A stretch of 38,755 nucleotides of DNA from a virus: the IMG/VR virus record IMGVR_UViG_3300025913_000073, positions 1 through 38,755 of that record. One strand, 5' to 3'. Below are positions 7,670-38,755 of the stretch, one piece after another; position 1 is the first letter of the stretch; each line of letters opens with the position of its first letter. Made by a program: the position numbers and the translations under genes. The notes beneath the pieces are model-generated. The model did no database searches. It was not told the DNA's origin and saw only the letters and a program-made list of their open reading frames with translations.

Positions 7670-7930
7670 TTATGCGTTCGCTAGGGTCGCCAACTGTGCA
7701 GCAGTTTCGGCGCAATAAAACACATCGCCAAAAGAATTGGCGGCGGCAGCAGAAGGCAGCCGAAGCATCCCGTACACGTTATACCCGGAACTAAGGCTTC
7801 GCGTGGGCGAATTGGATACATCGTAAATAAGGACACCTGTAGTTGGAAAATAGATTTTTTGAGGGGAATCGCGATCTAAAACGCGTTGGTTAATTTGGTA
7901 GACGTTTACCCCAAATACATTACTGGCCAT
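7670..7930 (-). CDS. Lone minus-strand small protein, unknown function
   Basis: An 86-residue protein starting ATG at 7930 (MASNVFGVNVYQINQRVL). It is probably real: it exactly fills the gap between a convergent plus-strand gene (stops adjoin at 7669/7670) and a divergent promoter region, and the bidirectional terminator follows its stop. The body is beta-like (KIYFPTTGVLIYDVS, GYNVYGML), and it ends with an Ala-rich helix (AETAAQLATLANA). No signal peptide, membrane span or catalytic motif is visible, and no family is recognised. Upstream, the minus strand has a TAGTTTTA sequence that could be a weak -7 box, but no clear -33 element. Confidence 0.55.
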   Translation of the reverse strand: MASNVFGVNVYQINQRVLDRDSPQKIYFPTTGVLIYDVSNSPTRSLSSGYNVYGMLRLPSAAAANSFGDVFYCAETAAQLATLANA

Positions 7931-8205: not shown

Positions 8206-9813
8206 ATGGACAAAAAGGTACTTTTTGGCAAGGATGCAAGATCCGCAATATTGGAAGGCGTAAAGAAGATAACCGATGCCGTCCGGGTTACAATGGGAGC
8301 GTCGGGTAAGTGCGTATTAATTGGGGAGGCGGTATACCAGGATGGATTTTTACGGCAACTTCCTACCATTATTTCAAAGGATGGATTCACCGTAACAAAG
8401 TATTTTTCCCTTTCCGATCCCATTGAAAACCGGGGGGCTTTGCTCATAAAGGAAGCCGCTTTCCGTACCGTAGAATCTGCTGGGGATGCTACAACTCTGA
8501 CCTGCATATTATCCGAAGCCATTATCTCGGCTGGCATAGAGTTGGTTAATCAAGGTGCTAATTCGCAGGAAGTAAAAAAAGGGATTGATAGCGCCGTCGA
8601 AAAAGCAGTAGCCGAATTAAAGGAAATGTCCATCCTTATAGGGGATAACAACGATAAAATATTCCAAGTAGCCAGTGTGAGCGCCAATAATGATCCCGCG
8701 ATTGGTAGGTTGATTGCCGACGCCTTTAAGAAAATCGGGCCGGAAGGCATGATCGACATTGAGGCCGGTAAAAGCGTAAAAACCGAAATCAAGATTGCTG
8801 ATGGTTACAAATGGCAATACGACAACTGGATAAGTCCATTTTTCGTCAACAAACCCGATAAGCAAGTTTGTGAATTCGAAGACCCGCTTATCCTTCTTTA
8901 CCAAAGCCGGATAACCCACCACACACAAGTTAAACGAGCCGTAGAACTGGCAAACGCCAATAGCCGCCCGTTGCTTATCGTTTGTGAAGATGCTGAAGGG
9001 GAGGGGCTTGCCTTTTTAGCCATCAATAACCACAACAAGGCGGTCCGGGTATGTGTGACAAAATCCCCCGCCTTCCGGGAAGAACGCCGTATAGAAATGG
9101 AGGACATTGCTCTTTTAACAGGAGGCACTTATATAAGCGATATCCGGGGCGTGGATATCAAAGAAATTGAAGTGGAGAACCTGGGGCAGGCCAAAAAGTG
9201 CATAGTAAGCAAAGAGGAGACGATCATTATCGGGGGCATCCACGATGGCGAAGGGTTGGAAAACCTCTTGAATGAGCTAAGGATGAACTTAGCGCAGGCT
9301 AAAAACGAGGAGGAGCGCCACCCTATTGAAAAACGAATTGCCAAACTGACAGGAGGAGTAGCGGTTTTCCAAGTAGGAGCGGCCACCGAAACCGAAATGA
9401 AGGAAAAACTTGACCGGTTTGACGACGCAGTTCGGGCCACAAAGGCGGCTATTGCTGAGGGATTTGTGGCGGGCGGCGGTACGGCATTTATAAGGATAGC
9501 CCAAAAAATAGAGTTTCCTAATGGAGAATCCCTAACTGACTTCCAGAGGGGGGAGCGGCTTATATTCAGTATCTTATCTTCTCCGTTACGGCAAATGGCA
9601 ATGAACGCCGGGGTTGAACATGAGAAAGTATATCATAACGTATGGGTTGCTTCAAATAATATGGGATACAACACTAAAACCGCCCAGATCGAAGACTTAG
9701 TAGAATCCGGCATAATCGATTCCACAAAAGCCCTTCGCTGCGCTTTGGTAAATGCCGCTTCCATTGCGGGGATGCTTATAATTTCTGAATGTTTAATAGA
9801 GGCAGTAGCTTAA
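8206..9813 (+). CDS. groEL: Phage-encoded GroEL chaperonin
   Basis: This 535-residue type I chaperonin aligns by eye along its length with bacterial GroEL. The start KKVLFGKDARSAILEGV matches the equatorial domain. The ATP site keeps SKDG (the D52 region), GDATT at residues 93-97 (host form GDGTT) and D407, equivalent to the catalytic D398, in FDDAVRATKAA. VAGGGTAF and GIIDSTKA are also kept. It differs by an insertion of about eight residues before SKDG, by GASGK replacing the usual GPKGR, by polar changes in the apical substrate groove (Lys at the position of L234), and by the lack of the Gly-Gly-Met tail; it ends ECLIEAVA. It should form an ATP-driven folding ring for phage proteins. It is followed by an HNH gene and two GroES-type genes. 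Confidence 0.92.
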   Translation: MDKKVLFGKDARSAILEGVKKITDAVRVTMGASGKCVLIGEAVYQDGFLRQLPTIISKDGFTVTKYFSLSDPIENRGALLIKEAAFRTVESAGDATTLTCILSEAIISAGIELVNQGANSQEVKKGIDSAVEKAVAELKEMSILIGDNNDKIFQVASVSANNDPAIGRLIADAFKKIGPEGMIDIEAGKSVKTEIKIADGYKWQYDNWISPFFVNKPDKQVCEFEDPLILLYQSRITHHTQVKRAVELANANSRPLLIVCEDAEGEGLAFLAINNHNKAVRVCVTKSPAFREERRIEMEDIALLTGGTYISDIRGVDIKEIEVENLGQAKKCIVSKEETIIIGGIHDGEGLENLLNELRMNLAQAKNEEERHPIEKRIAKLTGGVAVFQVGAATETEMKEKLDRFDDAVRATKAAIAEGFVAGGGTAFIRIAQKIEFPNGESLTDFQRGERLIFSILSSPLRQMAMNAGVEHEKVYHNVWVASNNMGYNTKTAQIEDLVESGIIDSTKALRCALVNAASIAGMLIISECLIEAVA

Positions 9814-9954
9814 TTTTCACCGTGTGGAACGTAGTATTTATATTATTCGTATCTTTGATTTGCCTAAAAATTCAGATGCATTATATTGAATACTAGTAAT
9901 TTATATTATTTTTTGTTACTAGGAGGTGAAATGATAAGTAAATAGTTCCACACA
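9814..9954. promoter_or_regulatory. Intergenic region with inverted repeats, SD-like sequence and weak promoter signals
   Basis: This 141-base AT-rich gap holds an outer inverted repeat, GTGTGGAAC (9822-9830) with GTTCCACAC (9945-9953), which surrounds an inner one, CTAGTAA (9893-9899) with TTACTAG (9916-9922). TTTG 9859-9862, a 19-base spacer and TATATTG 9882-9888 resemble a promoter. AGGAGG (9921-9926) precedes an ATG at 9931 that opens only a four-codon frame, ended by TAG at 9943-9945. The region leads into the HNH gene. Confidence 0.4.
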
Positions 9955-10389
9955 ATGTTTGTCGAAACAAAATATCAACGAAAACTGAAAATTAAAAAGC
10001 GCCAACAAGCGGCTTTTCGGCGGTTCATCAGGGGCCAAGGAACACCTATTAACATTCGAGACTACATCGGCTTGAATTGGCAAGAAACCAAAATTCTTTT
10101 GGAAACCCGGATGTTGGATTCAATGAATTGGAATAACTACGGTTCACATTGGGTAATCGATCATATTGCGCCATTCTGGATTTTTGATCTTGAAAATGAA
10201 AAAGACCTCAAAATGCTTTGGCATCCCGATAATTTAATGCCCATGTTATGGGAAGATAATATCCACAAACAAGGGGCTTTAAAGTGGTCAATATTAAAAC
10301 TTTCCCGGATAAAAGAATATTCAATTACTATTGAATTGCTTATCAACAGATTAATAAAAGAAGATAAACATTTAGACAAATATTTATAA
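9955..10389 (+). CDS. HNH homing-type endonuclease
   Basis: A 144-residue protein with a basic N-terminus (KLKIKKRQQAAFRRFI) and an HNH nuclease core: WVIDHIAPFWIFDL, then HPDNLMPMLWEDNIHKQG. The Asp-His of the first strand and the later Asn and His residues form the metal site typical of free-standing phage homing endonucleases. It is inserted between groEL and groES, genes that are normally adjacent, which suggests a mobile gene that entered the chaperonin operon. Its last base overlaps the groES start codon, so groES translation is still coupled. It could instead serve in DNA packaging, but it lies far from the terminase. Confidence 0.8.
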   Translation: MFVETKYQRKLKIKKRQQAAFRRFIRGQGTPINIRDYIGLNWQETKILLETRMLDSMNWNNYGSHWVIDHIAPFWIFDLENEKDLKMLWHPDNLMPMLWEDNIHKQGALKWSILKLSRIKEYSITIELLINRLIKEDKHLDKYL

Positions 10390-10658
10390 TGGCAATAAAA
10401 GTAACGAATAACGCCGTTTTTATAATCCGGGATAAGACTGAAACAGAAACCACCACAAAACTATTCATACCGGACAAGGGGCGAGAAAAGCCCAATACAG
10501 GCGTTGTTTATGGGGTGGGTGGATTGGTCAAAGACCCGGAAATCAAGCGCAGCAAAGGTAAGAAGGCGTTGTTTCACAAAGGAACTGGACAAGAGATTGA
10601 ATACGAAGGGGAAACCTACCTCGTTTTGGATGCGGGCCATATAATTGGTATAGTATGA
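10389..10658 (+). CDS. groES: GroES co-chaperonin, single domain
   Basis: An 89-residue protein, close to the usual 95-97 for GroES. It has the beta-barrel pattern: NNAVFIIRDKTETE, then NTGVVYGVGG, a KKALFHKGTGQEI strand, and the C-terminal YLVLDAGHIIGIV, which matches the E-D-I-L-A-I end of bacterial GroES. The mobile loop region is ETTTKLFIPDKGREKP, without the standard G-G-I-V-L but with a hydrophobic L-F-I patch that could dock to the phage GroEL. It should form a lid ring on the chaperonin. Its start overlaps the HNH stop and its stop overlaps the next start (ATGA). Confidence 0.85.
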   Translation: MAIKVTNNAVFIIRDKTETETTTKLFIPDKGREKPNTGVVYGVGGLVKDPEIKRSKGKKALFHKGTGQEIEYEGETYLVLDAGHIIGIV

Positions 10659-11197
10659 TACCAGTTAATGGGAAAATAACCGTAAAAGTTGATATGAAAC
10701 AAAAAGATACCTTCACCATCGGGGGTATTACAGTTTCAAGCGCCCTGAAATTTGAAACGAATTACAGGGAACGCTCGCCTGTTGTCGGCCTGATAGTAGA
10801 GGGGAACAGGTTTATTAAGCCTGGGCAAATAGCTCTATTTCACCACAACCATTTCTATCCCCCCTCCCCGTATTTCTTAATGGACGATCTTTTCAGCGTC
10901 CCCTTTAACCATACGGTTTTTGGTATTCTTACAGAAGAAGGCGAAATAAAGCCCATGTGCGGGAACATGATATGTCAACGCGTTGAAATACCCACATTCC
11001 TGCCGGTTCCGGTAGAGCAAAGAAAAAAGTATACCGACCGCGCAATTATCATAGACCCAGGAACCCAACCTTACAAAAAAGGCCAGTTAATATTTCACAA
11101 ACCATCTGCCGGTTATGATATAGTCTACAACTATAATAACATGGAAATCAGGGTTACAAAAGTCCACGCTGACATGGTTGTAGGCTTTATAAAGTGA
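10655..11197 (+). CDS. Tandem two-domain GroES-like co-chaperonin
   Basis: This 180-residue protein is twice the length of GroES, and each half resembles one. Half one (about 1-92) has GKITVKVDMKQKD, a mobile-loop-like IGGITVS that recalls the canonical GGIVL, then VVGLIVEGN, KPGQIALFHHN and a closing HTVFGIL. Half two (about 96-180) has GNMICQRVEI, AIIIDPG, KKGQLIFHKPS and DMVVGFIK, but a different loop (FLPVPVEQRKKYTD). This resembles in layout the chloroplast Cpn20, also a double Cpn10. It probably makes or caps a lid for the phage GroEL, alone or mixed with the single-domain GroES. The family call rests on pattern; an alternative is a beta-rich virion protein. Confidence 0.65.
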   Translation: MIPVNGKITVKVDMKQKDTFTIGGITVSSALKFETNYRERSPVVGLIVEGNRFIKPGQIALFHHNHFYPPSPYFLMDDLFSVPFNHTVFGILTEEGEIKPMCGNMICQRVEIPTFLPVPVEQRKKYTDRAIIIDPGTQPYKKGQLIFHKPSAGYDIVYNYNNMEIRVTKVHADMVVGFIK

Positions 11198-11229: not shown

Positions 11230-13716
11230 ATGGCCGATAACGTAGCTCCTTATAGTCAAAATTCGTTGCCAACCGATCCATTACTTTCCCGGTTCTTTCT
11301 TTCTCCGGAAGAAAAGGCTTCCAAAGAAAAAGGGAAGCAGATCATGCGGGAATTTTACCGTATACAATATAATAATGATTCAAATCTTAATTTCTTCCGA
11401 CTACGCTCACTAAGATGGATAGAGGTATTGCTTTGGATGAAGGGAAGCCAGAGAATGAATGAGTTCTTGGACTACATGAACGTAAATTCTGCTGATAAGT
11501 CATTCGTTCAAATAGATATGACGCCTAGCCGGATAGCGGCCCAGTTCATTGGCACTCTTATCGAAAGCATGGCAAAAAATAAAACCTACGCCTGCGTTGA
11601 CGCCATAGACGACGGTTCCTTATCCGAAAAAGAAGATCGATTGTATGAAGCTCTTTTCCGTATGCATGATGTGGATACCATTAACCAAACCCAACAAGCG
11701 TCAGGTATCCAGGTAGAACCCACAAACGCATTTGTCCCCGACGATGAATTATCTGCTAAGGTCTATTTTGAACTGGAAGATCGCCTCCCCAAAGAAATAC
11801 GCTTTGAAAAAATAATCGCAAAGCTAAAAGACGATATCAGTTTTGAATCTGTTTTGAACCGTAAAACCCTCTTTGATCTTGCTGCCCTTAATATTTTCTG
11901 CACTAAAATAGAATGTGTCGCTCCCGGTGAATATTGTGTCGAGAAATGTACGCCTACTAATATGGTTTACAATTTCTTCATGAATGATACGGGCGAAGTA
12001 GAAGTAGACCAAATCGGACAATTCAAAAGTGTAAAAGTGCGCGACTTCCGGGAAAAGTATGGCAAGAACGATTACCGGCCAAATGGATTAACCGAAAAGC
12101 AAATCTTTGAACTGGCAAAACAGTCCACCAATAAAAACATAGGCGTATTTAATTACCTGTGGAATGAAAACTGGTCTATGTTGCCATTTAATTATAACCG
12201 TCCTTACGATGATTGTTGTATTCTTATCCTTGACGCAGAAATAGACTGTGGCGAAGACGTATACTATGTGGAGAAAACGGATTCATTTGGCAAAAAGAAC
12301 TACGAACAAAAAAAGAGCATTCCATATCAGCAAACTAAAAAAGACGGGACAGTAATCGAGCAACCTAAGCCCGATAATACCGAAATAATCAAGCGCAAGA
12401 AAAACACCTGGATGCGCGGAATATATGCTCCTTATGGAGACACGATGATATACTGGGGACCACCGGATTTGATTATTACCCCTTTCACAAATGTTTCCCG
12501 ACCCTTATCTTCCTACACAATAGTTATTCCCGGAAACGATGGCGAATATATCCCTTCACTGGGAGAGCGCATGATGGAGCCATTACGGGAATATCAATTG
12601 GTAAAACTCAAACGGAAACAACTTATCGCAAAACTAAAACCCAGTGGTATCCGTATCGATGTGGAATCGGCCAGAAATATTGACCTGGGAAATGGGGATT
12701 CGGTGGCATGGGAAGAAGTAATGCGCATCTACGACCAAACCGGTAATGAGATATGGAGCAGCAAAGGGATTGATCCTCTTATGAAAGAAGCGCCGCCCCT
12801 TAGTAATACCGTGCATGACGAAGCCGTAGAAAAGATTATAGGGTGTACAACCGTAATGGCGGGAATCGTTAATGAGATTCGCCAATTGGTAGGCGTCCCA
12901 ATGTACCGGGATGGCAGTGATGTAGGAGATCGGACAGCCGCAAAACTGGCCGAAGGTCAAAACGAAAGCTCCTACAACGTAACTGACTATATATTAGTAG
13001 CTAATAATAAAGGTTGGGAAGATACCTTTTACAAAATATGCTTGCTTCACTGGAACGATGTCGTTAAAAAAGAACCGGAATCCAAAGAAGATATGATGAA
13101 TACCCGGTTTAAAGTACGGGTAAAAACCAAATCAACTGAATATCAAAAACAACTTTTGGAAAATGATATTCAACGTTACAGCCAGATGCCAGATGCACAA
13201 GGAAACCCATCCCTGACAATTAAGGACGCAATAATGCTCCGGGAGATTGATGATTACAAGCTCGCGTGCTGGTATTTGGACGTAACATTTAAAAAGAACC
13301 GGCAACATGCAATTGATGAAAGCCAACGACTACAACAACAGAACCAGGAATTACAACAGCAATCTGCGATGCAGGCCCAAAAACAGGAAGCAGAACTTCA
13401 ACAAGAGAAACTGGCCGCCGAAAAAGAAATGCTTGATTTTAAAGCTACCAAGGACAAAGAATTGGCAACCGTCAACGGATTGTGGCAAGCAATCGGCAAA
13501 GGCGTAATATCTCCCGATATAGCCTTACCGGTTATTCAGCAATTAATCCCCAATATTACCATACCTCTCGTTATGGAAAACCAGGCCATGCAGGAAAATA
13601 TAGCCGCAAATCAGCAACAGGAACAAATGGAGCAACAGCCCGCCGCACAACAACAGGGCGCGCCAGAGGAAGGACAATCCGAAGAAATGCAAGAAGATCA
13701 ACCACAAATGCAATAG
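11230..13716 (+). CDS. Portal protein
   Basis: An 828-residue protein in the position and size range of portals of short-tailed Bacteroidota phages. It forms the dodecameric ring at the capsid vertex through which DNA enters and leaves. Supporting features: N-terminal FYRIQYNNDSNLNFFRLRSLRW, a region before the stem with GEYCVEKCTPTNMVYNFF, a likely stem/clip area with MMEPLREYQLVKLKRKQL, and a C-terminal stretch from about residue 690 rich in Gln and Glu forming long coiled helices, usual for the barrel end. It is followed by a small gene and TerL, the classic portal/terminase association. No frameshift is seen. The name rests on order, size and general pattern. Confidence 0.75.
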   Translation: MADNVAPYSQNSLPTDPLLSRFFLSPEEKASKEKGKQIMREFYRIQYNNDSNLNFFRLRSLRWIEVLLWMKGSQRMNEFLDYMNVNSADKSFVQIDMTPSRIAAQFIGTLIESMAKNKTYACVDAIDDGSLSEKEDRLYEALFRMHDVDTINQTQQASGIQVEPTNAFVPDDELSAKVYFELEDRLPKEIRFEKIIAKLKDDISFESVLNRKTLFDLAALNIFCTKIECVAPGEYCVEKCTPTNMVYNFFMNDTGEVEVDQIGQFKSVKVRDFREKYGKNDYRPNGLTEKQIFELAKQSTNKNIGVFNYLWNENWSMLPFNYNRPYDDCCILILDAEIDCGEDVYYVEKTDSFGKKNYEQKKSIPYQQTKKDGTVIEQPKPDNTEIIKRKKNTWMRGIYAPYGDTMIYWGPPDLIITPFTNVSRPLSSYTIVIPGNDGEYIPSLGERMMEPLREYQLVKLKRKQLIAKLKPSGIRIDVESARNIDLGNGDSVAWEEVMRIYDQTGNEIWSSKGIDPLMKEAPPLSNTVHDEAVEKIIGCTTVMAGIVNEIRQLVGVPMYRDGSDVGDRTAAKLAEGQNESSYNVTDYILVANNKGWEDTFYKICLLHWNDVVKKEPESKEDMMNTRFKVRVKTKSTEYQKQLLENDIQRYSQMPDAQGNPSLTIKDAIMLREIDDYKLACWYLDVTFKKNRQHAIDESQRLQQQNQELQQQSAMQAQKQEAELQQEKLAAEKEMLDFKATKDKELATVNGLWQAIGKGVISPDIALPVIQQLIPNITIPLVMENQAMQENIAANQQQEQMEQQPAAQQQGAPEEGQSEEMQEDQPQMQ

Positions 13717-13719
13717 CGT

Positions 13720-14058
13720 ATGGCAGATGAATTAAAAGAATCCCAAAAGAGAATAGAAGTCTTGGAGCAAAAATTGTCATTGTATGAAACTGACGCTACC
13801 ATGCGTGGGTTTTATTCTTTAAACAGGATAGTCAATCAGCAAATAGATTATCTAAATTCATTTAACCTTAAAACAGAAATATCTTCAAATCCCAAAGAAG
13901 ACAAGGCGTATGACCGGGCCAAGGGATTATGGGAGGGGTTGAAAGGCTTGATAAGCGATCTTAATTCTTTAAAATCAGAATTAAAGATAACAGGGGATGA
14001 AGATAAAGATAAAAAACGGTTGCCATTTAATGATCGAATAGCAGAGAATAGGTCATAA
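13720..14058 (+). CDS. Small coiled-coil protein upstream of TerL
   Basis: A 112-residue protein beginning MADELKESQKRIEVLEQKLSL, a clear heptad coiled coil. The remainder is helical and charged, ending with Asp/Lys repeats. It starts 3 bases after the portal stop, and its stop overlaps the TerL start by one base. Because it directly precedes TerL, a small-terminase-like or portal-accessory role is possible, but no helix-turn-helix DNA-binding motif is visible, so this stays open. Confidence 0.6.
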   Translation: MADELKESQKRIEVLEQKLSLYETDATMRGFYSLNRIVNQQIDYLNSFNLKTEISSNPKEDKAYDRAKGLWEGLKGLISDLNSLKSELKITGDEDKDKKRLPFNDRIAENRS

Positions 14059-16184
14059 TGAGTGAGTATATTCAAATATATGGGTCAAATATAAAACTCC
14101 CCGAACGCCCCAAAGATGAAGATGCGTTAAATTATGGCCTACCCAGAAAAGAGCAAAAATGGAAGCGTAACGAATTACCTTCATTTTTTGACAAAGTTGA
14201 ATATAATAAGTCTGGGAATCTAATACTTACCGAAGAACAAGAGGATTACGCAGCGCAAGAAGTTAGGCGATGCAAAGAGGGCGTATGGATGTGGATTGGA
14301 GAAAAACTCCGATATATACCCAAACGGTATTATTTTTATTTACAATACTATACGCTGGAAGACGGGACGGCCCCGGAATTCCGGGAAGCTGATAGGCTAT
14401 ATTTTTTGTTTTTTGAATGGTGGTTTTTAGTCCTTTGGTGCCTGGGGATTATTCGAATAAAAAAACGTAGGCAAGGTGCATCTTCTCAGTCCTGCTCCAA
14501 CATTCTTTATGAGGCCATTTTTTATAGGAACTCCAATTGCGGTGTAATATCCAAAACAAAAGAGGATAGTAAGGATACGTTCACTCAGATGATAACAATG
14601 GCATATCGTCTTTTACCCGTATTCTTAAAGCCCAAACAAGTAAATAAAGAAGATAGCGTAACGGAATTAGTTTTTGCCCATAAATCCCAAACAGTTAAAC
14701 CCGGCACTGCCGCAGGTGTTAAAGAAGAAGAAGGGCATAATTCTAAGATAAACTATAAAGCCCCTGTGCTTAATGCGTATGATCGGGGTAGAATGTCATA
14801 CGTATTGGGGGATGAATTTGGTAAGTTACCCAAAGAAGTTCCGGCATGGCAACTTTTAGCAATTATTTCAAATACTTTAAAGAAGGGTGTTAAGCGCGTA
14901 GGTTGGATAGATTTGCCATCTACCGTGAATGAAATGACTAAGGGCGGCGGTGATGAATATAAAAGGATTTGGGATAATTCAAACCAGTTCAAGAAAAAAC
15001 AAACAATAAACAGGCTCGTTAGATTTTTCCAACCAGCTTATGAAGCCTATGAAGGATTTATCGATGAATTTGGAGATAGTGTTATTGGCGTTCCAACGGA
15101 AGAGCAATACGAATACTTAGTAAATAAATGGGTTCAATATAACGAAGATGGCGATCTTATTTCTGAGCTATCTGAGGCAGATATAAAATTAGGCGCTAAA
15201 CACTATGTAGAAATAAAGAGAAGAGAAGGATTGGAGGGTGAAGACCTGGAAGAAGAAGTGCGGATGAATCCATGTGATGAAGATGAGGCATTTAAGTATG
15301 CCGGTGCGGGGTGTGAATTTAATGCAACTAATATACAAAACCAGATAAAGGAATTGGAAGATAATAAACCATTCCTACGGCAAATGCGCCTTGTTCCGGA
15401 AAAGAAATTAGAAAAATCAATATTCCCTGGAAAGAAAGATAGGGAATGGGAAATTGCCAAACCAATGGATGATGCAAAAGGGGGATGGTTTTTTTTAGAA
15501 TTGCCGAACAAGCCAAATCACTTTAAATTTAATGGAGGACAATACGAGCCATTAAATAAGAGTATGTACCAGATAGGGGTAGATACTACTAAAGACATGA
15601 TTACTTTGAATGGCTCCAAGCCCGTCATTCTCGTATTTAAAAAATCCTGCATTGTAGAAGGTGAAGAAACTGGTATGTATCCGGTAGCTATGTGGATCGC
15701 TGATACACGATTGGATATACATTTTGATGAACAAGTGTTGTTAGCTTGTAAATTATTTGGCTGCACGGCTAACTACGAAATCGATGCCCGAGGCGATTAT
15801 TATCGTTATTTCCATAAACAAGGTTGTGGGGCATTTTTGGAATGGACGCCCAAAGTTGCACAAAATCCAGTTAAGAAAAATAATAAAATAGAACCCGGTA
15901 CCCGTTCCGGCGATCCTTTCCAGTTATCAACCCAACTCCAAATCGGGAAGATGTATATAGATGGTACAGATAAGGATGTATATAATGGCCATGTCCATAG
16001 AATAAAATTCATTACATTATTACAGCAATTAAAAAGATACGATCATAATAACCGCACTCCGTTTGATCAATGTATTGCATTATTCATGGCACTCCTGCCG
16101 ATATTTGGAGAACAACAAGCGCCGATATTGCCGCCCGATAAGATAAAAGTACTTCCAACTTATAAAATCAAGATGGTCGCATAG
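14058..16184 (+). CDS. terL: Large terminase subunit, TerL
   Basis: A 708-residue packaging motor. The ATPase half carries a Walker-A-like KKRRQGASSQS near residue 138 and a Walker B MSYVLGDEFGK near residues 247-257, the D-E pair being the catalytic one. The nuclease half begins YQIGVDTTKDM near residue 505 and includes YEIDARGDYYRYF, fitting the acidic metal-binding residues of RNase-H-like terminase nucleases. The degenerate Walker A (K-R-R-Q-G-A-S-S) is like that of crAss-like and related phage terminases. It translocates DNA into the prohead through the portal and cuts it. It overlaps its upstream neighbour by one base, and its 3' end overlaps a convergent minus-strand gene by 17 bases. 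Confidence 0.9.
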   Translation: MSEYIQIYGSNIKLPERPKDEDALNYGLPRKEQKWKRNELPSFFDKVEYNKSGNLILTEEQEDYAAQEVRRCKEGVWMWIGEKLRYIPKRYYFYLQYYTLEDGTAPEFREADRLYFLFFEWWFLVLWCLGIIRIKKRRQGASSQSCSNILYEAIFYRNSNCGVISKTKEDSKDTFTQMITMAYRLLPVFLKPKQVNKEDSVTELVFAHKSQTVKPGTAAGVKEEEGHNSKINYKAPVLNAYDRGRMSYVLGDEFGKLPKEVPAWQLLAIISNTLKKGVKRVGWIDLPSTVNEMTKGGGDEYKRIWDNSNQFKKKQTINRLVRFFQPAYEAYEGFIDEFGDSVIGVPTEEQYEYLVNKWVQYNEDGDLISELSEADIKLGAKHYVEIKRREGLEGEDLEEEVRMNPCDEDEAFKYAGAGCEFNATNIQNQIKELEDNKPFLRQMRLVPEKKLEKSIFPGKKDREWEIAKPMDDAKGGWFFLELPNKPNHFKFNGGQYEPLNKSMYQIGVDTTKDMITLNGSKPVILVFKKSCIVEGEETGMYPVAMWIADTRLDIHFDEQVLLACKLFGCTANYEIDARGDYYRYFHKQGCGAFLEWTPKVAQNPVKKNNKIEPGTRSGDPFQLSTQLQIGKMYIDGTDKDVYNGHVHRIKFITLLQQLKRYDHNNRTPFDQCIALFMALLPIFGEQQAPILPPDKIKVLPTYKIKMVA

Positions 16185-17633: not shown

Positions 17634-19043
17634 ATGCCATCAGCAATAGTCAGGGGTGCAACCGGGCAACCGGGCCCCGCCGCGTATCCTTCAGGGATAA
17701 CGACCGGCATATTCAATGAACTCAACTTCGTCATTCCCGATTATATTCCCGGAATTATCGCCAAATACGGCAATAGCTCCTATATGTTGGTAAGCGACAT
17801 ATTAGGCCGCTCTACCGTAGAAACGACCAATACAACCACCAATACCTTTTCTCACTTTGAAAAAGGGCGTCCGTTTGGTTCTGGTATCGTTTTAAATACC
17901 GTAGCAAGCGGTGCATCCGGTGCGGCAGTCAGCGTAACACTTAAAAGCCCGCAATCGTATAATGATGGAGCGGCAGGCACACAATCGCCGTTCTTGTTGA
18001 ATCAAACCGTAAAAGTACGCTCTAACGGCTTGAAATATAAGGTTACAAACATTACCCGGACTACCGGCGCATTTGTGGTCGAACTTACTCCATTGGGAGC
18101 ATATACCGTTCGGTCCGGAACTGGAACGTCCATTCTGGCTGGTGAAGGTTTGGAAACATTTGGTAACCAATTGGCCGGGGAAAGCTCCGATTCACAAGGG
18201 ACAATGCAACAAAAAATGTTCCGCTATGACAATACTTGTACTGTCCTGCGGGCATCTACCAAAAGTTCCGATTTGGCTGCCATGAACAAAACCCAAATAG
18301 ATTTTGGGGGCGGTAAATTCTACGAACCTGCACTGGCCGTTCAAACCATGAACATCAACATGATGATGAACGTGGAAGATGCGGTATTCGAAGGTGTTCC
18401 CTATTCCAACATTTCCGGAACTACTGGCACAGTAGGGATTCTTACTGACATTGGCGCACGCGGATCGGAAGTGGATTACGTTTCAACCATGTTCGCTATC
18501 GGTGATTTCCAGAATTTCACCAACGTACTGGATGCCAATGGCGGCCCGCGTGAATACCATTTCATTCAGGATTTGAAACAACGCCAGGACATCAATAACC
18601 TTTTATTCGGTATCTACCGTAACGGCGCTATAAGCTACGGAAGCGTAGGTATGAGCGAAGAAGCATCGGTATCCTATGGCTTCAAAAGTTTCTCTACGGA
18701 TACCTTTGATTTTCACTTCCACCGTTACAAAGGCTTTACCGCACAAGCCGTATTCGGTTATGTACCCACTGTGGGTGATTACCGCGCAAACTTTGGCGTA
18801 GGTGTTCCGCAAGGTACTGTAGTAGATGCCAAAGACGGTGATGCAACGCGCCCATATATGCAGTGGGTTTATCAACAAAACCCCGATATTACAGCCGGCC
18901 AACGTATCTATAGCTGGTCTCTGGGTTACACGCAACCAACCAAAACCACGGAAGCCTCTAACAAATACGAACAGATTTGTTATCCAGGTTCCCGTACAAT
19001 AGCAGCAGAGCAGTTCGCCTTACTTCGTGGGCTCGTAAGTTAA
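17634..19043 (+). CDS. Major capsid protein
   Basis: A 469-residue protein immediately after the scaffold-like gene, with beta-rich composition and length typical of HK97-fold capsid proteins of large Bacteroidota phages. The N-terminal part (IFNELNFVIPDYIPGIIAKYG) and the region about residues 85-160, rich in Gly, Thr and Val with VTLKSPQSYND and TVKVRSNGLKYKV, suggest an inserted surface domain. The C-terminal half (SYGFKSFSTDTFDFHFHRYKG and NKYEQICYPGSRTIAAE) fits the P-domain. It is the likeliest client of the phage chaperonin. A hairpin follows 29 bases after its stop. The name rests on order and size; the fold was not checked. Confidence 0.75.
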   Translation: MPSAIVRGATGQPGPAAYPSGITTGIFNELNFVIPDYIPGIIAKYGNSSYMLVSDILGRSTVETTNTTTNTFSHFEKGRPFGSGIVLNTVASGASGAAVSVTLKSPQSYNDGAAGTQSPFLLNQTVKVRSNGLKYKVTNITRTTGAFVVELTPLGAYTVRSGTGTSILAGEGLETFGNQLAGESSDSQGTMQQKMFRYDNTCTVLRASTKSSDLAAMNKTQIDFGGGKFYEPALAVQTMNINMMMNVEDAVFEGVPYSNISGTTGTVGILTDIGARGSEVDYVSTMFAIGDFQNFTNVLDANGGPREYHFIQDLKQRQDINNLLFGIYRNGAISYGSVGMSEEASVSYGFKSFSTDTFDFHFHRYKGFTAQAVFGYVPTVGDYRANFGVGVPQGTVVDAKDGDATRPYMQWVYQQNPDITAGQRIYSWSLGYTQPTKTTEASNKYEQICYPGSRTIAAEQFALLRGLVS

Positions 19044-33962: not shown

Positions 33963-34834
33963 TGGCAGTTAATATACCATTATATATACAATACGGTCAA
34001 ATCGGCCAGTTTTCATTAGCTAATAAATACGCTAATGATGCTATATTTAATGGGGTTAATTTAGTGCCATCGTATATTTCATTGTTACGTACCATTCAGG
34101 AAACGGTTTCGGATCAATACAGTTTAAGTGGGTCTACCCCGGCGTTGGAGGGATTGGCAAATTATATGTTAGCCTTATCGGGAGTATGGCCGGTCAATAC
34201 AACGCCTGTAGCTACCCCCTTTATCATAGTTACGCAACCACAAAGCCAAACGGTAAATGCCGGGACTAATGTTAGTTTCATAGTTGTAGTGTCGGGAGGG
34301 GTTCAGCCTTATACATACCAATGGAAAAAGAATGGATTGGATTTGTCCGGCGAAACGGCACAAACATTATCATTAACAAGCGTAACCAGTGGAGATGCCG
34401 GAAATTATTCTGTAGTTATTACTGATAATACGGGACAAGTGTTAACAAGTAACAATGCATTATTATTGGTTGTTGCGGCTGCTATTACCGGGTCATATTA
34501 TTATGGAGATACGGATTATTTCGCGGCTCTTTCCGCCGGAACGGATGCAATTTCTTACCAAGGCACTTTCTCGATAACTCATAATGCGCCCATAGTACCT
34601 CCGTATCCATTGGCAGCAGGAAACAATAAAATGCTAGTGATCCGTGTGCCAGTAGGAGAAAGTCTTAAAACAACCTGGTTTAATACTGCATTTAATAACG
34701 GAACTATTCAACCAAGCGACGGTATTTTCAGAGTGCCATTAACTCCAGCAGGGTTGCCTTTATATACATATTATTTGACAGAGTTAGCTTCGAGTTTTGA
34801 TTTCAATAATCCAAACGTATTAACGCTTTCGTAA
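33962..34834 (+). CDS. Ig-like domain virion protein
   Basis: A 290-residue protein starting ATG 33962 (MAVNIPLYIQYGQ). Residues about 85-175 are an immunoglobulin-like domain: VTQPQSQTVNAGTNVSF, a central YQWKKNGLDLSG with the core Trp, and SVTSGDAGNYSVVITD, in which D-x-G-x-Y is the canonical Ig C-terminal motif. Such domains on phage virions are thought to bind surface glycans weakly and aid adsorption. The stop overlaps the next start, so it is translated with the tail spike. The rest of the protein is unrecognised but beta-rich. Confidence 0.75.
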   Translation: MAVNIPLYIQYGQIGQFSLANKYANDAIFNGVNLVPSYISLLRTIQETVSDQYSLSGSTPALEGLANYMLALSGVWPVNTTPVATPFIIVTQPQSQTVNAGTNVSFIVVVSGGVQPYTYQWKKNGLDLSGETAQTLSLTSVTSGDAGNYSVVITDNTGQVLTSNNALLLVVAAAITGSYYYGDTDYFAALSAGTDAISYQGTFSITHNAPIVPPYPLAAGNNKMLVIRVPVGESLKTTWFNTAFNNGTIQPSDGIFRVPLTPAGLPLYTYYLTELASSFDFNNPNVLTLS

Positions 34835-37800
34835 TGAAAAAACTATTATTCATATTATTTATACTAATTGGATATTTTTCCAAATCGCAAATTCAGTATA
34901 ACCCCTCTCTTTTTACCGTATCCAATAAAAGTTTTGGAGTGGCGCAGGGCGTTACCACAGATGCACGTAGTTGGATAAGGGATACTACTATTCCTTCTCC
35001 ATTCATGCGAAACTATGCAAGTCGGTCCGAAGCAAATACATATCTATATTTGGCGAAATATAGAGTAGGACATTTTTCTCTATATATAGATTCCGCAGGC
35101 GCAACCTACGAATATTGGTATAGAAACTGCACAAATGACACGTGTCTTGTTCTAAAAAATAACAATCCCACTACAACAGATAGTTCCATATTCGCTACTC
35201 TCTATCGCGTAGATACTGCTAAAACGAATCTTCGTACTGAAATAGCAGGTAAAGTATCCACTACACTCCCAACCGGCCAAATATTGGCAGGGAATTTATC
35301 TAATGTAGCTACTCCAGTAACACCTGGAGGGGTTCTTTCTATGACTTCGGGCGGTGCTTTTGATTATGTAAATAACTCCATACTGTTTTCAAAAATACAG
35401 ACAATACCTTCTCATACGGTAATAGGAAATCCAACAGGAAGTACGGCAACCCCACGATCTACCTATTTAAAGTATGGTTTTCTGTTCGATAATGACAGCA
35501 CTAAAATTGATACTACATTGCTTAAAAATGTATTTGGTGCGGGTTCTATAGGATGGGGATTAACTGGTAATGCCGGAACCGTTGAAGGAACAAATTTCAT
35601 AGGTACAACGGATAATATTCCCCTTAGTTTTCGGATTAACAATGTAGCTAGTGGTTACATCGGTAATGGTACGACATTCAACACGTTCTTCGGGTCAACG
35701 GCTGGATCGTCCATAACATCCGGACAAGGCAATACGGGTGTGGGATGGGGTTCTGCACCTTCTCTTACTTCAGGAGGTAATAACACTTCAATGGGGGCTT
35801 TTGCGTTAGGATCTACAGACGTAGGGCAATTTAATACTGCTATAGGAGTGGGTTCTTTGAATGCAAATACCGCAGGAAGCAATAATACCGCCATCGGAAA
35901 TATAGCCTTACAAAATACTTCCGGAAATTTCAATACTGCTTTGGGAAATGCTGCCGGAATAAACATAACTACAGGGCATCATAATATAGTAATTGGAGCC
36001 GATACAAATACTACATTGCCCCTTACAACCGGGTCATATAATACCATAATCGGTGGAAATATCAGTACGATTAACCCCTCTTTCAATAACTCAGTTTTAA
36101 TAGCTACCGGAAAAGGAACAGAAAGATTACGGTTTGATTCAGTGGGTAATCTTAAAATAACCCATCAGACATTAATTAATGATACATCTACTTATAAAGT
36201 CCTGACACAAAATGCAAGTGGGAACGTTCGTACAAGTAACTGGTTGGGCAGCAGTGTAAGCATGGATAGCACCCTGTTTTACACAAAATACCGATCTGAC
36301 ACATCCCGGACAAATATATACAATGCTATAAATGGAAAACAAAATACTCTTACACTTACAACAAGTGGTAGTAGCGGACCCGCTACCCTTATCGGGGCTA
36401 CCCTTAATATTCCACAATATAGCGGAGGCGGGATGACAAACCCGATGACCACGGCGGGAGATTTAATTGTCGGAGGGACAGGAGGGGCACCCACTCGCGT
36501 AGGTGTTGGAACAAATAACCAATTGTGGACAGTTATAAGTGGCACACCACAATGGGCAACCTCGGCTGATCCGTCTGTATTTAATATTGTTACCCAATAC
36601 GGAGCCGATCCGACAGGAGTAGTAGACGCATGTCCTTTAATTCAACAAGCTATATTAGATGCATTTGCTGCCGGAGGTGGCGTTGTATATGTTCCCATAG
36701 GAGTTTATAATATTGCATGCGCCCCGACGCACAATATTGGCGGGATTGATATGAACGCGCAGTTGTATATACCCTGGGATACGACTTTACAAACAACTAC
36801 AATCGTTAAAATAGTTGGCCAAACAGTTCCAACAAATACAGAAGCAACGCCTTTTTATTTCCCCAATGCTTCCATACCTTTTACCGGGCCGGTTTTCTAT
36901 TCCACGACTACTGTTAACAACTCTACTCATGCCGGTTGCGCGGTAATTGGGACAAACGGGCCGCAAAACTCGCTATTCGGAACTTTTAATTACAATGGAT
37001 TGGAGGTAGAAAATTTAACTATAATAGTCAAAAACAATCCAAACGGGGCCGGCCCGGAAATAGGGGGTATTAATCTGGCTAATATGGGTGGACGAATTGC
37101 CTTAAAGAGTTTAAATTTCATGGTTGACACCATTGGTACTTATCTTACTTATCCGTCACGGGAACTAAGCGGATTTGAATTACCAGACAACGGTGGTGGT
37201 GCTCAATATGCTGTCAGGGATGTAGTTGCTTCAGGTATTAAACGGGGATTTGTTTTTGGAGAACACGTAGTGGCTTTAAACTGTAATGCTGGCTCTTGCG
37301 TAAATGGTATATCTTTTAAATCGGGGAGTCACTATTCTTCCGTAGACCACTTTCTTGCCACATGGTGTATCAATCAGATAGACTGGTACAATAAAGGAAG
37401 TAGTCAGGGATTATTCGTAGATGTGAATGCTTTGGACATTGAGTGGGGGTTAGGAAATCCGCAATGGTTTAACTCCGCTACACTGATACATGATACGGCC
37501 AGTTTAATAACCGGCACAGTTAAATACTACGAATTGGCGCAAGGGGGGAGTACCCCGTATAGTCAGTCATTACCCGTTGATGGAGGACTTAATATTGATA
37601 CACTAAGTATTAAAATACCGCGTGTTGCTTATAACAGAAGCACCTCTACAAATTTTGTGCGGGGTAATTTTGCAGCCGGAATAGCGCAACAGGGATTGCC
37701 CGCCTCCTCAGGAATTGGATTAGCTGATGAAACATTTCTATTAGTTGGTAATACCAATGCTTCAGCGGGTACAAGCCATTTACCAGAGTTTTTAACAGTT

Positions 37801-38755
37801 GTTAATCAACCCACTACTGCAACGGGATTAATAAGCAGATGGATGAGTGTTAATACAGCTATCCCCGGTTCCGGTAGTGCAGAACGGAGGGCTTTTGTAT
37901 TGGCAACGGCTACCAATGGTACTTTGACCTCAACCCTGGCAAATGTATCTGTACTAAGCAACGGTACTTCCACCACAATGCAACAATGGGATAGTACCTA
38001 TGTTAGTTTCCCAACTGCTAATGCAAGATTTGGTAATCTTACCGGAAATCTTTTAATCGGCACATCTACAGATGCGTCATCCCGGATGCACGCAGTAAAT
38101 ACAACGGGAAGTATAACTACAATGTTTTCGGGTCTTAACGCGAGTGGAAGTAGTGCCGCAGGTGCTGATTTTGCACTGTTTAATGACGCAGGTACAGGCG
38201 CGAACCATGGATTTCACGGTTATATGCTTTCTTCAACATTTTCCGGGTTTAATAACTTAGCCCAGTTTTTCAACTATGAGAACGGAGCTATGAGATTTGG
38301 AACGAATAACAAGCAATTCATAATAGGGTTCCCTTCAGGAAATACCCGATTTGGAACCACGACAACGGACGGCAATGCGTTTGTACAAACAGATCCAAAT
38401 ACAACTAGCACAGCTTCTCTATTGCTTGCCCCGAGTTCTGCCGTGAATGTTTCTTCCCCAACATCGGGTATGCTTTGGTGGAACGGGACTAACTTAAATT
38501 TCAGAACGGGGAGTAGCACAGTGGATTTATTGGCTGGAGGATCAGGAGGTTCAGATACCCTTAAACTGGTAAACGAAGGAACGGGTCTTCCACTTACCTG
38601 GGCCACCGCAGACACGGCACATATAAGTACGATACTGGCTACGAATGGGTTAACCGGAAGCAAGTTGTCAGATAGCACTTTACAAATTGTATTGGGGGGC
38701 ACACTCACTCAGAATACAAATATAGCGGGAGCTTCAAAAGCTATGAAGTTGGGAA
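34834..38755 (+). CDS. Tail spike/fibre with signal-like N-terminus, NTxxG repeats and pectate-lyase fold, 3' end missing
   Basis: The frame is open from ATG 34834 to the end of the window, at least 1307 residues. The first 19 residues (MKKLLFILFILIGYFSKSQ) look like a Sec signal peptide with possible cleavage after SKS. Residues 300-407 hold seven NTxxG-type repeats about 17 residues apart, like the YadA-head beta roll. At 589-606 the sequence reads YGADPTGVVDACPLIQQA, the start of a pectate-lyase-type beta helix as in phage spike depolymerases. Near residue 1073 is LLIGTSTDASSRM, typical of spike C-terminal regions. The gene overlaps its neighbour by one base. It probably recognises or cuts surface polysaccharide. 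The catalytic residues cannot be named. Confidence 0.75.
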   Translation, partial: MKKLLFILFILIGYFSKSQIQYNPSLFTVSNKSFGVAQGVTTDARSWIRDTTIPSPFMRNYASRSEANTYLYLAKYRVGHFSLYIDSAGATYEYWYRNCTNDTCLVLKNNNPTTTDSSIFATLYRVDTAKTNLRTEIAGKVSTTLPTGQILAGNLSNVATPVTPGGVLSMTSGGAFDYVNNSILFSKIQTIPSHTVIGNPTGSTATPRSTYLKYGFLFDNDSTKIDTTLLKNVFGAGSIGWGLTGNAGTVEGTNFIGTTDNIPLSFRINNVASGYIGNGTTFNTFFGSTAGSSITSGQGNTGVGWGSAPSLTSGGNNTSMGAFALGSTDVGQFNTAIGVGSLNANTAGSNNTAIGNIALQNTSGNFNTALGNAAGINITTGHHNIVIGADTNTTLPLTTGSYNTIIGGNISTINPSFNNSVLIATGKGTERLRFDSVGNLKITHQTLINDTSTYKVLTQNASGNVRTSNWLGSSVSMDSTLFYTKYRSDTSRTNIYNAINGKQNTLTLTTSGSSGPATLIGATLNIPQYSGGGMTNPMTTAGDLIVGGTGGAPTRVGVGTNNQLWTVISGTPQWATSADPSVFNIVTQYGADPTGVVDACPLIQQAILDAFAAGGGVVYVPIGVYNIACAPTHNIGGIDMNAQLYIPWDTTLQTTTIVKIVGQTVPTNTEATPFYFPNASIPFTGPVFYSTTTVNNSTHAGCAVIGTNGPQNSLFGTFNYNGLEVENLTIIVKNNPNGAGPEIGGINLANMGGRIALKSLNFMVDTIGTYLTYPSRELSGFELPDNGGGAQYAVRDVVASGIKRGFVFGEHVVALNCNAGSCVNGISFKSGSHYSSVDHFLATWCINQIDWYNKGSSQGLFVDVNALDIEWGLGNPQWFNSATLIHDTASLITGTVKYYELAQGGSTPYSQSLPVDGGLNIDTLSIKIPRVAYNRSTSTNFVRGNFAAGIAQQGLPASSGIGLADETFLLVGNTNASAGTSHLPEFLTVVNQPTTATGLISRWMSVNTAIPGSGSAERRAFVLATATNGTLTSTLANVSVLSNGTSTTMQQWDSTYVSFPTANARFGNLTGNLLIGTSTDASSRMHAVNTTGSITTMFSGLNASGSSAAGADFALFNDAGTGANHGFHGYMLSSTFSGFNNLAQFFNYENGAMRFGTNNKQFIIGFPSGNTRFGTTTTDGNAFVQTDPNTTSTASLLLAPSSAVNVSSPTSGMLWWNGTNLNFRTGSSTVDLLAGGSGGSDTLKLVNEGTGLPLTWATADTAHISTILATNGLTGSKLSDSTLQIVLGGTLTQNTNIAGASKAMKLG
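35731..36054 (+). repeat. Seven coding repeats of NTxxG type, period about 17 residues
   Basis: Within the tail spike, NTGVG, NTSMG, NTAIG, NTAIG, NTALG, NIVIG and NTIIG begin at residues 300, 317, 334, 351, 367, 384 and 403. The near-regular spacing (17, 17, 17, 16, 17, 19) suggests stacked turns of a left-handed beta roll, as in YadA-type adhesin heads. Confidence 0.75.

Follow-up and report, generated by a model that had tools for sequence, protein, structure and literature searches.

The gene at 10655..11197 (+ strand) of the window, which is the whole stretch of DNA analysed here (a 38.8 kb linear virus record), was confirmed by computation to encode a real tandem GroES-like protein of 180 aa, as first described; its neighbours include genes for a phage GroEL and a canonical single-domain GroES. 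The protein is a distant member of an annotated, widespread phage family, and not a first. We consider it probable that it acts as a Cpn20-like lid subunit, probably mixed with the single GroES, in the folding of a head protein, likely the capsid protein.

Position and gene order

The two-domain ORF was read from the sequence as an ATG at 10655 with a stop codon ending at 11197, and its assignment as a two-domain GroES-like co-chaperonin draws on the ORF, the GroES profile match of both halves and the match to Panino CDS0088. Along the + strand the order is GroEL (8206..9813, 535 aa; PF00118 E 1.3e-48, phrog_5725 E 8.5e-131), an endonuclease-like insert, single GroES (10389..10658, 89 aa; Pfam PF00166 E 1.1e-13), the two-domain gene, the portal gene as its downstream neighbour (11230..13716, 828 aa; phrog_6547 portal E 3.3e-26), the terminase large subunit or TerL gene (14058..16184; phrog_6681 E 5.2e-73), and a gene for a head virion structural protein (17634..19043; phrog_13704 head and packaging E 1.1e-17). 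Going by position alone, the product of 17634..19043 is likely to be the major capsid protein, and is a candidate client. The stop codon of the single GroES gene and the start codon of the two-domain gene overlap by four bases, as read from the sequence (ATGA); the ATGA overlap is present also in the relatives L002 and L091, and in L003 the two genes overlap by 17 bases. The order GroEL, GroES, 180-aa gene, portal, terminase is common to three IMG/VR relatives (80, 67 and 45% identical). Since the contigs of two of these three are 74 and 76 kb, roughly half of the genome is probably covered by the window.

Several other features of the region were recorded. The insert between GroEL and GroES is an Endonuclease VII/HNH-like ORF (9955-10389; phrog_1035 E 2e-4) and looks like a mobile endonuclease inserted into the chaperonin operon; L002 has a different endonuclease-like ORF upstream of GroEL, and in L091 GroES directly follows GroEL. 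Just upstream of GroEL, on the minus strand and thus opposite to its neighbours, is an 86-aa ORF (MASNV...SLSSGYNVY...; 7670-7930) conserved in L002, L003 and L091. The L003 terminase (9085-11172) looks very unlike that of the window, although GroEL-to-portal is conserved, which suggests module exchange. An ORF of at least 1307 aa (34834-38754) runs past the window end and is likely to encode a tail fibre or tail-spike protein.

Two GroES-like halves in one chain

The 180-aa protein had no significant sequence match in Pfam, PHROG, NCBIfam or PDB, and neither it nor either half separately matched Pfam Cpn10 (PF00166); the 89-aa gene does match. A window-clade profile of each half was therefore compared with a GroES sequence set, with 100 column shuffles as the control. 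Half 1 (GroES-like domain 1, residues 1-95, 10655..10939) scored 25.3, whereas the shuffles reached at most 17.2 (0 of 100 at or above the real score); half 2 (GroES-like domain 2, residues 96-180, 10940..11194) scored 19.9, a value reached by one of the 100 shuffles. Two GroES domains in a row, as the preliminary description had proposed, are thus upheld, and the profile search that it had suggested for each half gave a match in register for both, more weakly for half 2. The hhalign alignments put both halves in the GroES register from the first strand, unforced, with IKPMCGNMICQRVEI of half 2 aligned to IRPLHDRVIVKRKEV; in the profile alignment the stretch of the GroES roof hairpin is passed over in each half. 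Judged by sequence, half 2 alone is the weaker half, its assignment as GroES-like being supported mainly through relatives: the sister-family domain 2 (see below) scored 31.1 against GroES, with 0 of 100 shuffles reaching that value, and domain 2 of Pachyviridae matches PF00166.

The two halves differ in their loops. The mobile-loop region of domain 1 (residues 17-36, 10703..10762, KDTFTIGGITVSSALKFETN) contains TIGGITVSSA, which hhalign places exactly onto the GroES loop SAGGIVLTGS, so that IGGITV of half 1 corresponds to AGGIVL of GroES and the docking motif GG-I-x-[VLF] is present; IGG does not vary among the four relatives. The corresponding region of domain 2 (residues 112-130, 10988..11044, IPTFLPVPVEQRKKYTDRA) is non-canonical, lacks the docking motif, and is the least conserved segment of the whole protein: mean pairwise identity within the clade is 0.36 for this loop, as against 0.64 for the half-1 loop and 0.60 overall. 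The canonical-like mobile loop is accordingly confined to the first half, just as had been noticed at the outset. Domain 1 carries in addition an invariant HHNxF motif, which the window clade has in common with the sister clade and which GroES does not show.

Structure models and likeness to known lids

Structure prediction, which the preliminary description had put forward as a check, gave a GroES-like beta-barrel for the sister family, whereas the AlphaFold model of the window clade, made from four sequences, was uninterpretable (pLDDT 36). When the window clade was pooled with the sister clade in one MAFFT alignment, the first strand was misplaced, and this alignment was left out of folding. 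The sister-family protein was modelled at pLDDT 76.6, and the solved structure that matched it best across the two domains was Chlamydomonas Cpn20 (7ekq_R; Foldseek E 6.4e-4; Z 10.3 with 157 residues aligned at rmsd 4.9 across residues 1-187, VIA), in keeping with the resemblance to Cpn20 first suggested. GroES and T4 gp31 structures came next, on domain 2. The structural re-alignment tests mostly domain 2, and the support for sister domain 1 is mainly the full-length Cpn20 match together with the sequence profiles.

Chloroplast Cpn20/Cpn23 (7ekq_R, 7ekq_Q) has two GroES domains head to tail, as here, and Cpn20 coexists with single-domain Cpn10/11 and Cpn60; the proposed parallel to Cpn60/Cpn10/Cpn20 holds in the window, where the two-domain chain accompanies a PF00166 single GroES and a phrog_5725 GroEL. 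Unlike Cpn20, the phage domain 2 has no conserved docking loop, and the phage roof stretch is absent. Sequence searches matched bacterial GroES and not Cpn20, giving no special sequence relationship to Cpn20, and the origin of the phage protein is probably independent of the chloroplast one; it seems that a fusion of the Cpn20 kind arose here separately from the plastid one. Bacterial GroES (PF00166) is alike in the register of each half and in the docking loop of domain 1, but the phage protein differs from it as a tandem fusion, below Pfam detection, with the roof hairpin stretch missing. The phage lid for GroEL, T4 gp31 (1g31, 2cgt), is matched by sister domain 2 at Z 6.8 and 6.4; gp31, however, is single-domain and replaces host GroES while using host GroEL, whereas this phage encodes a GroEL of its own and a single GroES as well.

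The sister family and its phages

Aligned over more than 90% of its length, the window TerL shares 24-26% identity with the TerL proteins of phi13:2, Maribacter phage Panino and ctfjg026; with the Elemovirus TerL it shares 30%, over part of its length. In all four phages a protein of 180-200 aa adjoins the terminase or portal: phi13:2 gp96 (also phi18:3 gp96), Elemovirus gp32, Panino CDS0088 and a 187-aa protein of ctfjg026, which belong to phrog_13932 ('co-chaperonin GroES'). In the isolates the annotation reads 'chaperonin cpn10' or 'co-chaperonin GroES'; the ctfjg026 protein is annotated as hypothetical. Domain 2 of phi13:2 gp96 scores above the Pfam cut-off for Cpn10 (PF00166 E 1.4e-7), and domain 1 of elemoB gp32 matches phrog_3188 GroES at 3e-4.

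A direct search with the window protein found no match to phrog_13932. Profile against profile, the window clade and the sister family aligned over domain 1 with E 1.2e-6; by hhalign, domain 1 matched domain 1 at E 9e-8 and domain 2 matched domain 2 at E 0.039. When whole phage genomes were searched with the window-clade profile, exactly Panino CDS0088 'co-chaperonin GroES' was found (E 5.7e-6); the search did not reach the phi13:2, elemoB or ctfjg026 members, and returned nothing in two GroEL phages without the two-domain family. A weak match, Bacillus phage G gp16, was dropped, as the protein had no GroES pattern when read. The window-clade profile identified no relative in a scan of bacterial genomes, and so neither a host nor a bacterial tandem GroES.

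The window protein resembles phrog_13932 in its length (180-200 aa), its two GroES-like halves, its place beside terminase/portal, and the company of a single GroES and mostly of GroEL; it differs in sequence (about 14-26% identity), in a shorter stretch after HHNxF, and in its gene, which in the window clade overlaps the single GroES gene next to GroEL. The two co-chaperonin genes are kilobases apart in Elemovirus and Pachyviridae, the overlap being limited to the window clade. In every locus read, the two-domain gene was beside the portal or terminase gene or one small gene away; the window gene is followed by portal (11230) and TerL (14058), the placement of a related podovirus, and its relatives' order is alike. 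The ctfjg026-type protein is encoded at more than 500 IMG/VR places, and a query of this type retrieved 85 INPHARED records, all of them Flavobacterium, Cellulophaga or Maribacter phages except ctfjg026 itself, the Manatee Spring phage, an environmental genome.

GroEL was present in 13 of the 15 genomes with a two-domain protein, and a canonical single GroES/Cpn10, always a separate short gene, was over cut-off in 14 of the 15. Elemovirus, Panino, ctfjg026 and a number of IMG/VR genomes each carry all three genes. The statement that no phage was known with this combination was thus wrong, since these deposited genomes carry it, and a trio unique to the window was likewise rejected. Pachyviridae (phi13:2, phi18:3) have the single and the two-domain co-chaperonin; phi13:2 is without GroEL, so that its two co-chaperonins would work with host GroEL. 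GroEL and GroES are listed in Panino (PMC11590407) and chaperonin cpn10 is a core protein of Pervagoviridae (PMC8776804), the tandem being described in neither. We found no paper describing a tandem phage GroES; our coverage of the literature was incomplete and an earlier description is possible, but the tandem, Cpn20-like nature of the family seems undiscussed in the papers searched, and in the databases the family is hidden under the plain name GroES.

Proposed function and alternatives

We propose that the two-domain protein would contribute two neighbouring lid segments to the closing of the GroEL barrel, as Cpn20 does; the domain 1 loop would dock onto GroEL and domain 2 would mainly fill the ring. 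Its synthesis would be translationally coupled to that of the single GroES, which it would probably join in a mixed ring. With no roof hairpin of the GroES type in either domain, a more open lid is expected. Mixed rings have precedent in chloroplasts, where Cpn10 and Cpn20 form hetero-rings of seven GroES domains, and T4 gp31 makes the chamber larger, to the benefit of its capsid protein gp23 (PMC5780408). The restriction of the docking motif to domain 1, the gene overlap and the roof loss are most simply read as a mixed ring that has a smaller number of docking loops and a more open top. The protein served would be one of head morphogenesis, most likely the capsid protein; GroEL binding, the mixed ring and the client are what we infer from these features. 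In its fullest form, a chloroplast-like trio evolved independently by a virus, in which one mixed seven-domain ring, only partly docking, makes an asymmetric and roofless lid dedicated to a head protein, the proposal is a tentative one and rather less likely than not.

Two other ways of reading the protein keep its GroES ancestry. It could form the lid alone, in place of the single GroES, as three or four chains giving six or eight GroES domains. Such rings are workable, in that Cpn20 homo-oligomers and concatamers of six to eight domains function with seven-fold GroEL (PMC5780408), and the distance between the two co-chaperonin genes in Elemovirus and Pachyviridae means that they could be made separately. 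A homo-ring, however, would dock through just three or four loops, given that no conserved loop is present in domain 2, and the overlapping genes of the window clade suggest joint use; we therefore regard a lid of this kind as unlikely. Somewhat less likely still is a GroES descendant that has taken on some other task in head assembly or packaging, such as holding the portal or terminase, and does not close GroEL. The gene does adjoin terminase/portal even in genomes that lack GroEL or have GroEL and GroES at other sites, almost all the genomes have a separate canonical GroES, and domain 1 has an invariant motif of its own in HHNxF; yet conservation of the GroEL-docking motif of domain 1 across clades is hard to explain without contact with a chaperonin, and GroEL accompanies the protein in most of the genomes.

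That the protein is a virion structural component whose barrel merely resembles GroES is very improbable. Small beta barrels are common in virions, and the gene does sit among head genes, but the Pfam and PHROG matches of the relatives are to GroES and to no virion family, and Cpn20 and GroES come first in the structure search with the sister model. Moreover, in phi18:3 a virion proteomics note is attached to the portal and other virion proteins but not to gp96. This, with the steady position in the head module, suggests that the protein assists the assembly of heads and is no part of the virion.

For asking what leads certain phages to bring a complete chaperonin set, and what is gained by a two-domain lid, this family offers many natural examples, including those of cultured Flavobacterium, Cellulophaga and Maribacter phages, such as Elemovirus in Flavobacterium sp. 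BAL314 and phi18:3 in Cellulophaga baltica. It allows tests with purified proteins of how an even-numbered or mixed lid sits on a seven-fold barrel, and of whether the lid sets the choice of client.

The GroEL of the window was also seen to be altered in a segment of the apical helix, the one through which E. coli GroEL contacts GroES: in the alignment it reads HHTQVKRAV in place of NIREMLPVL. The change is common to the window clade and absent in the elemoB and immuto GroEL; from sequence comparison, it may reflect co-evolution with unusual lids.
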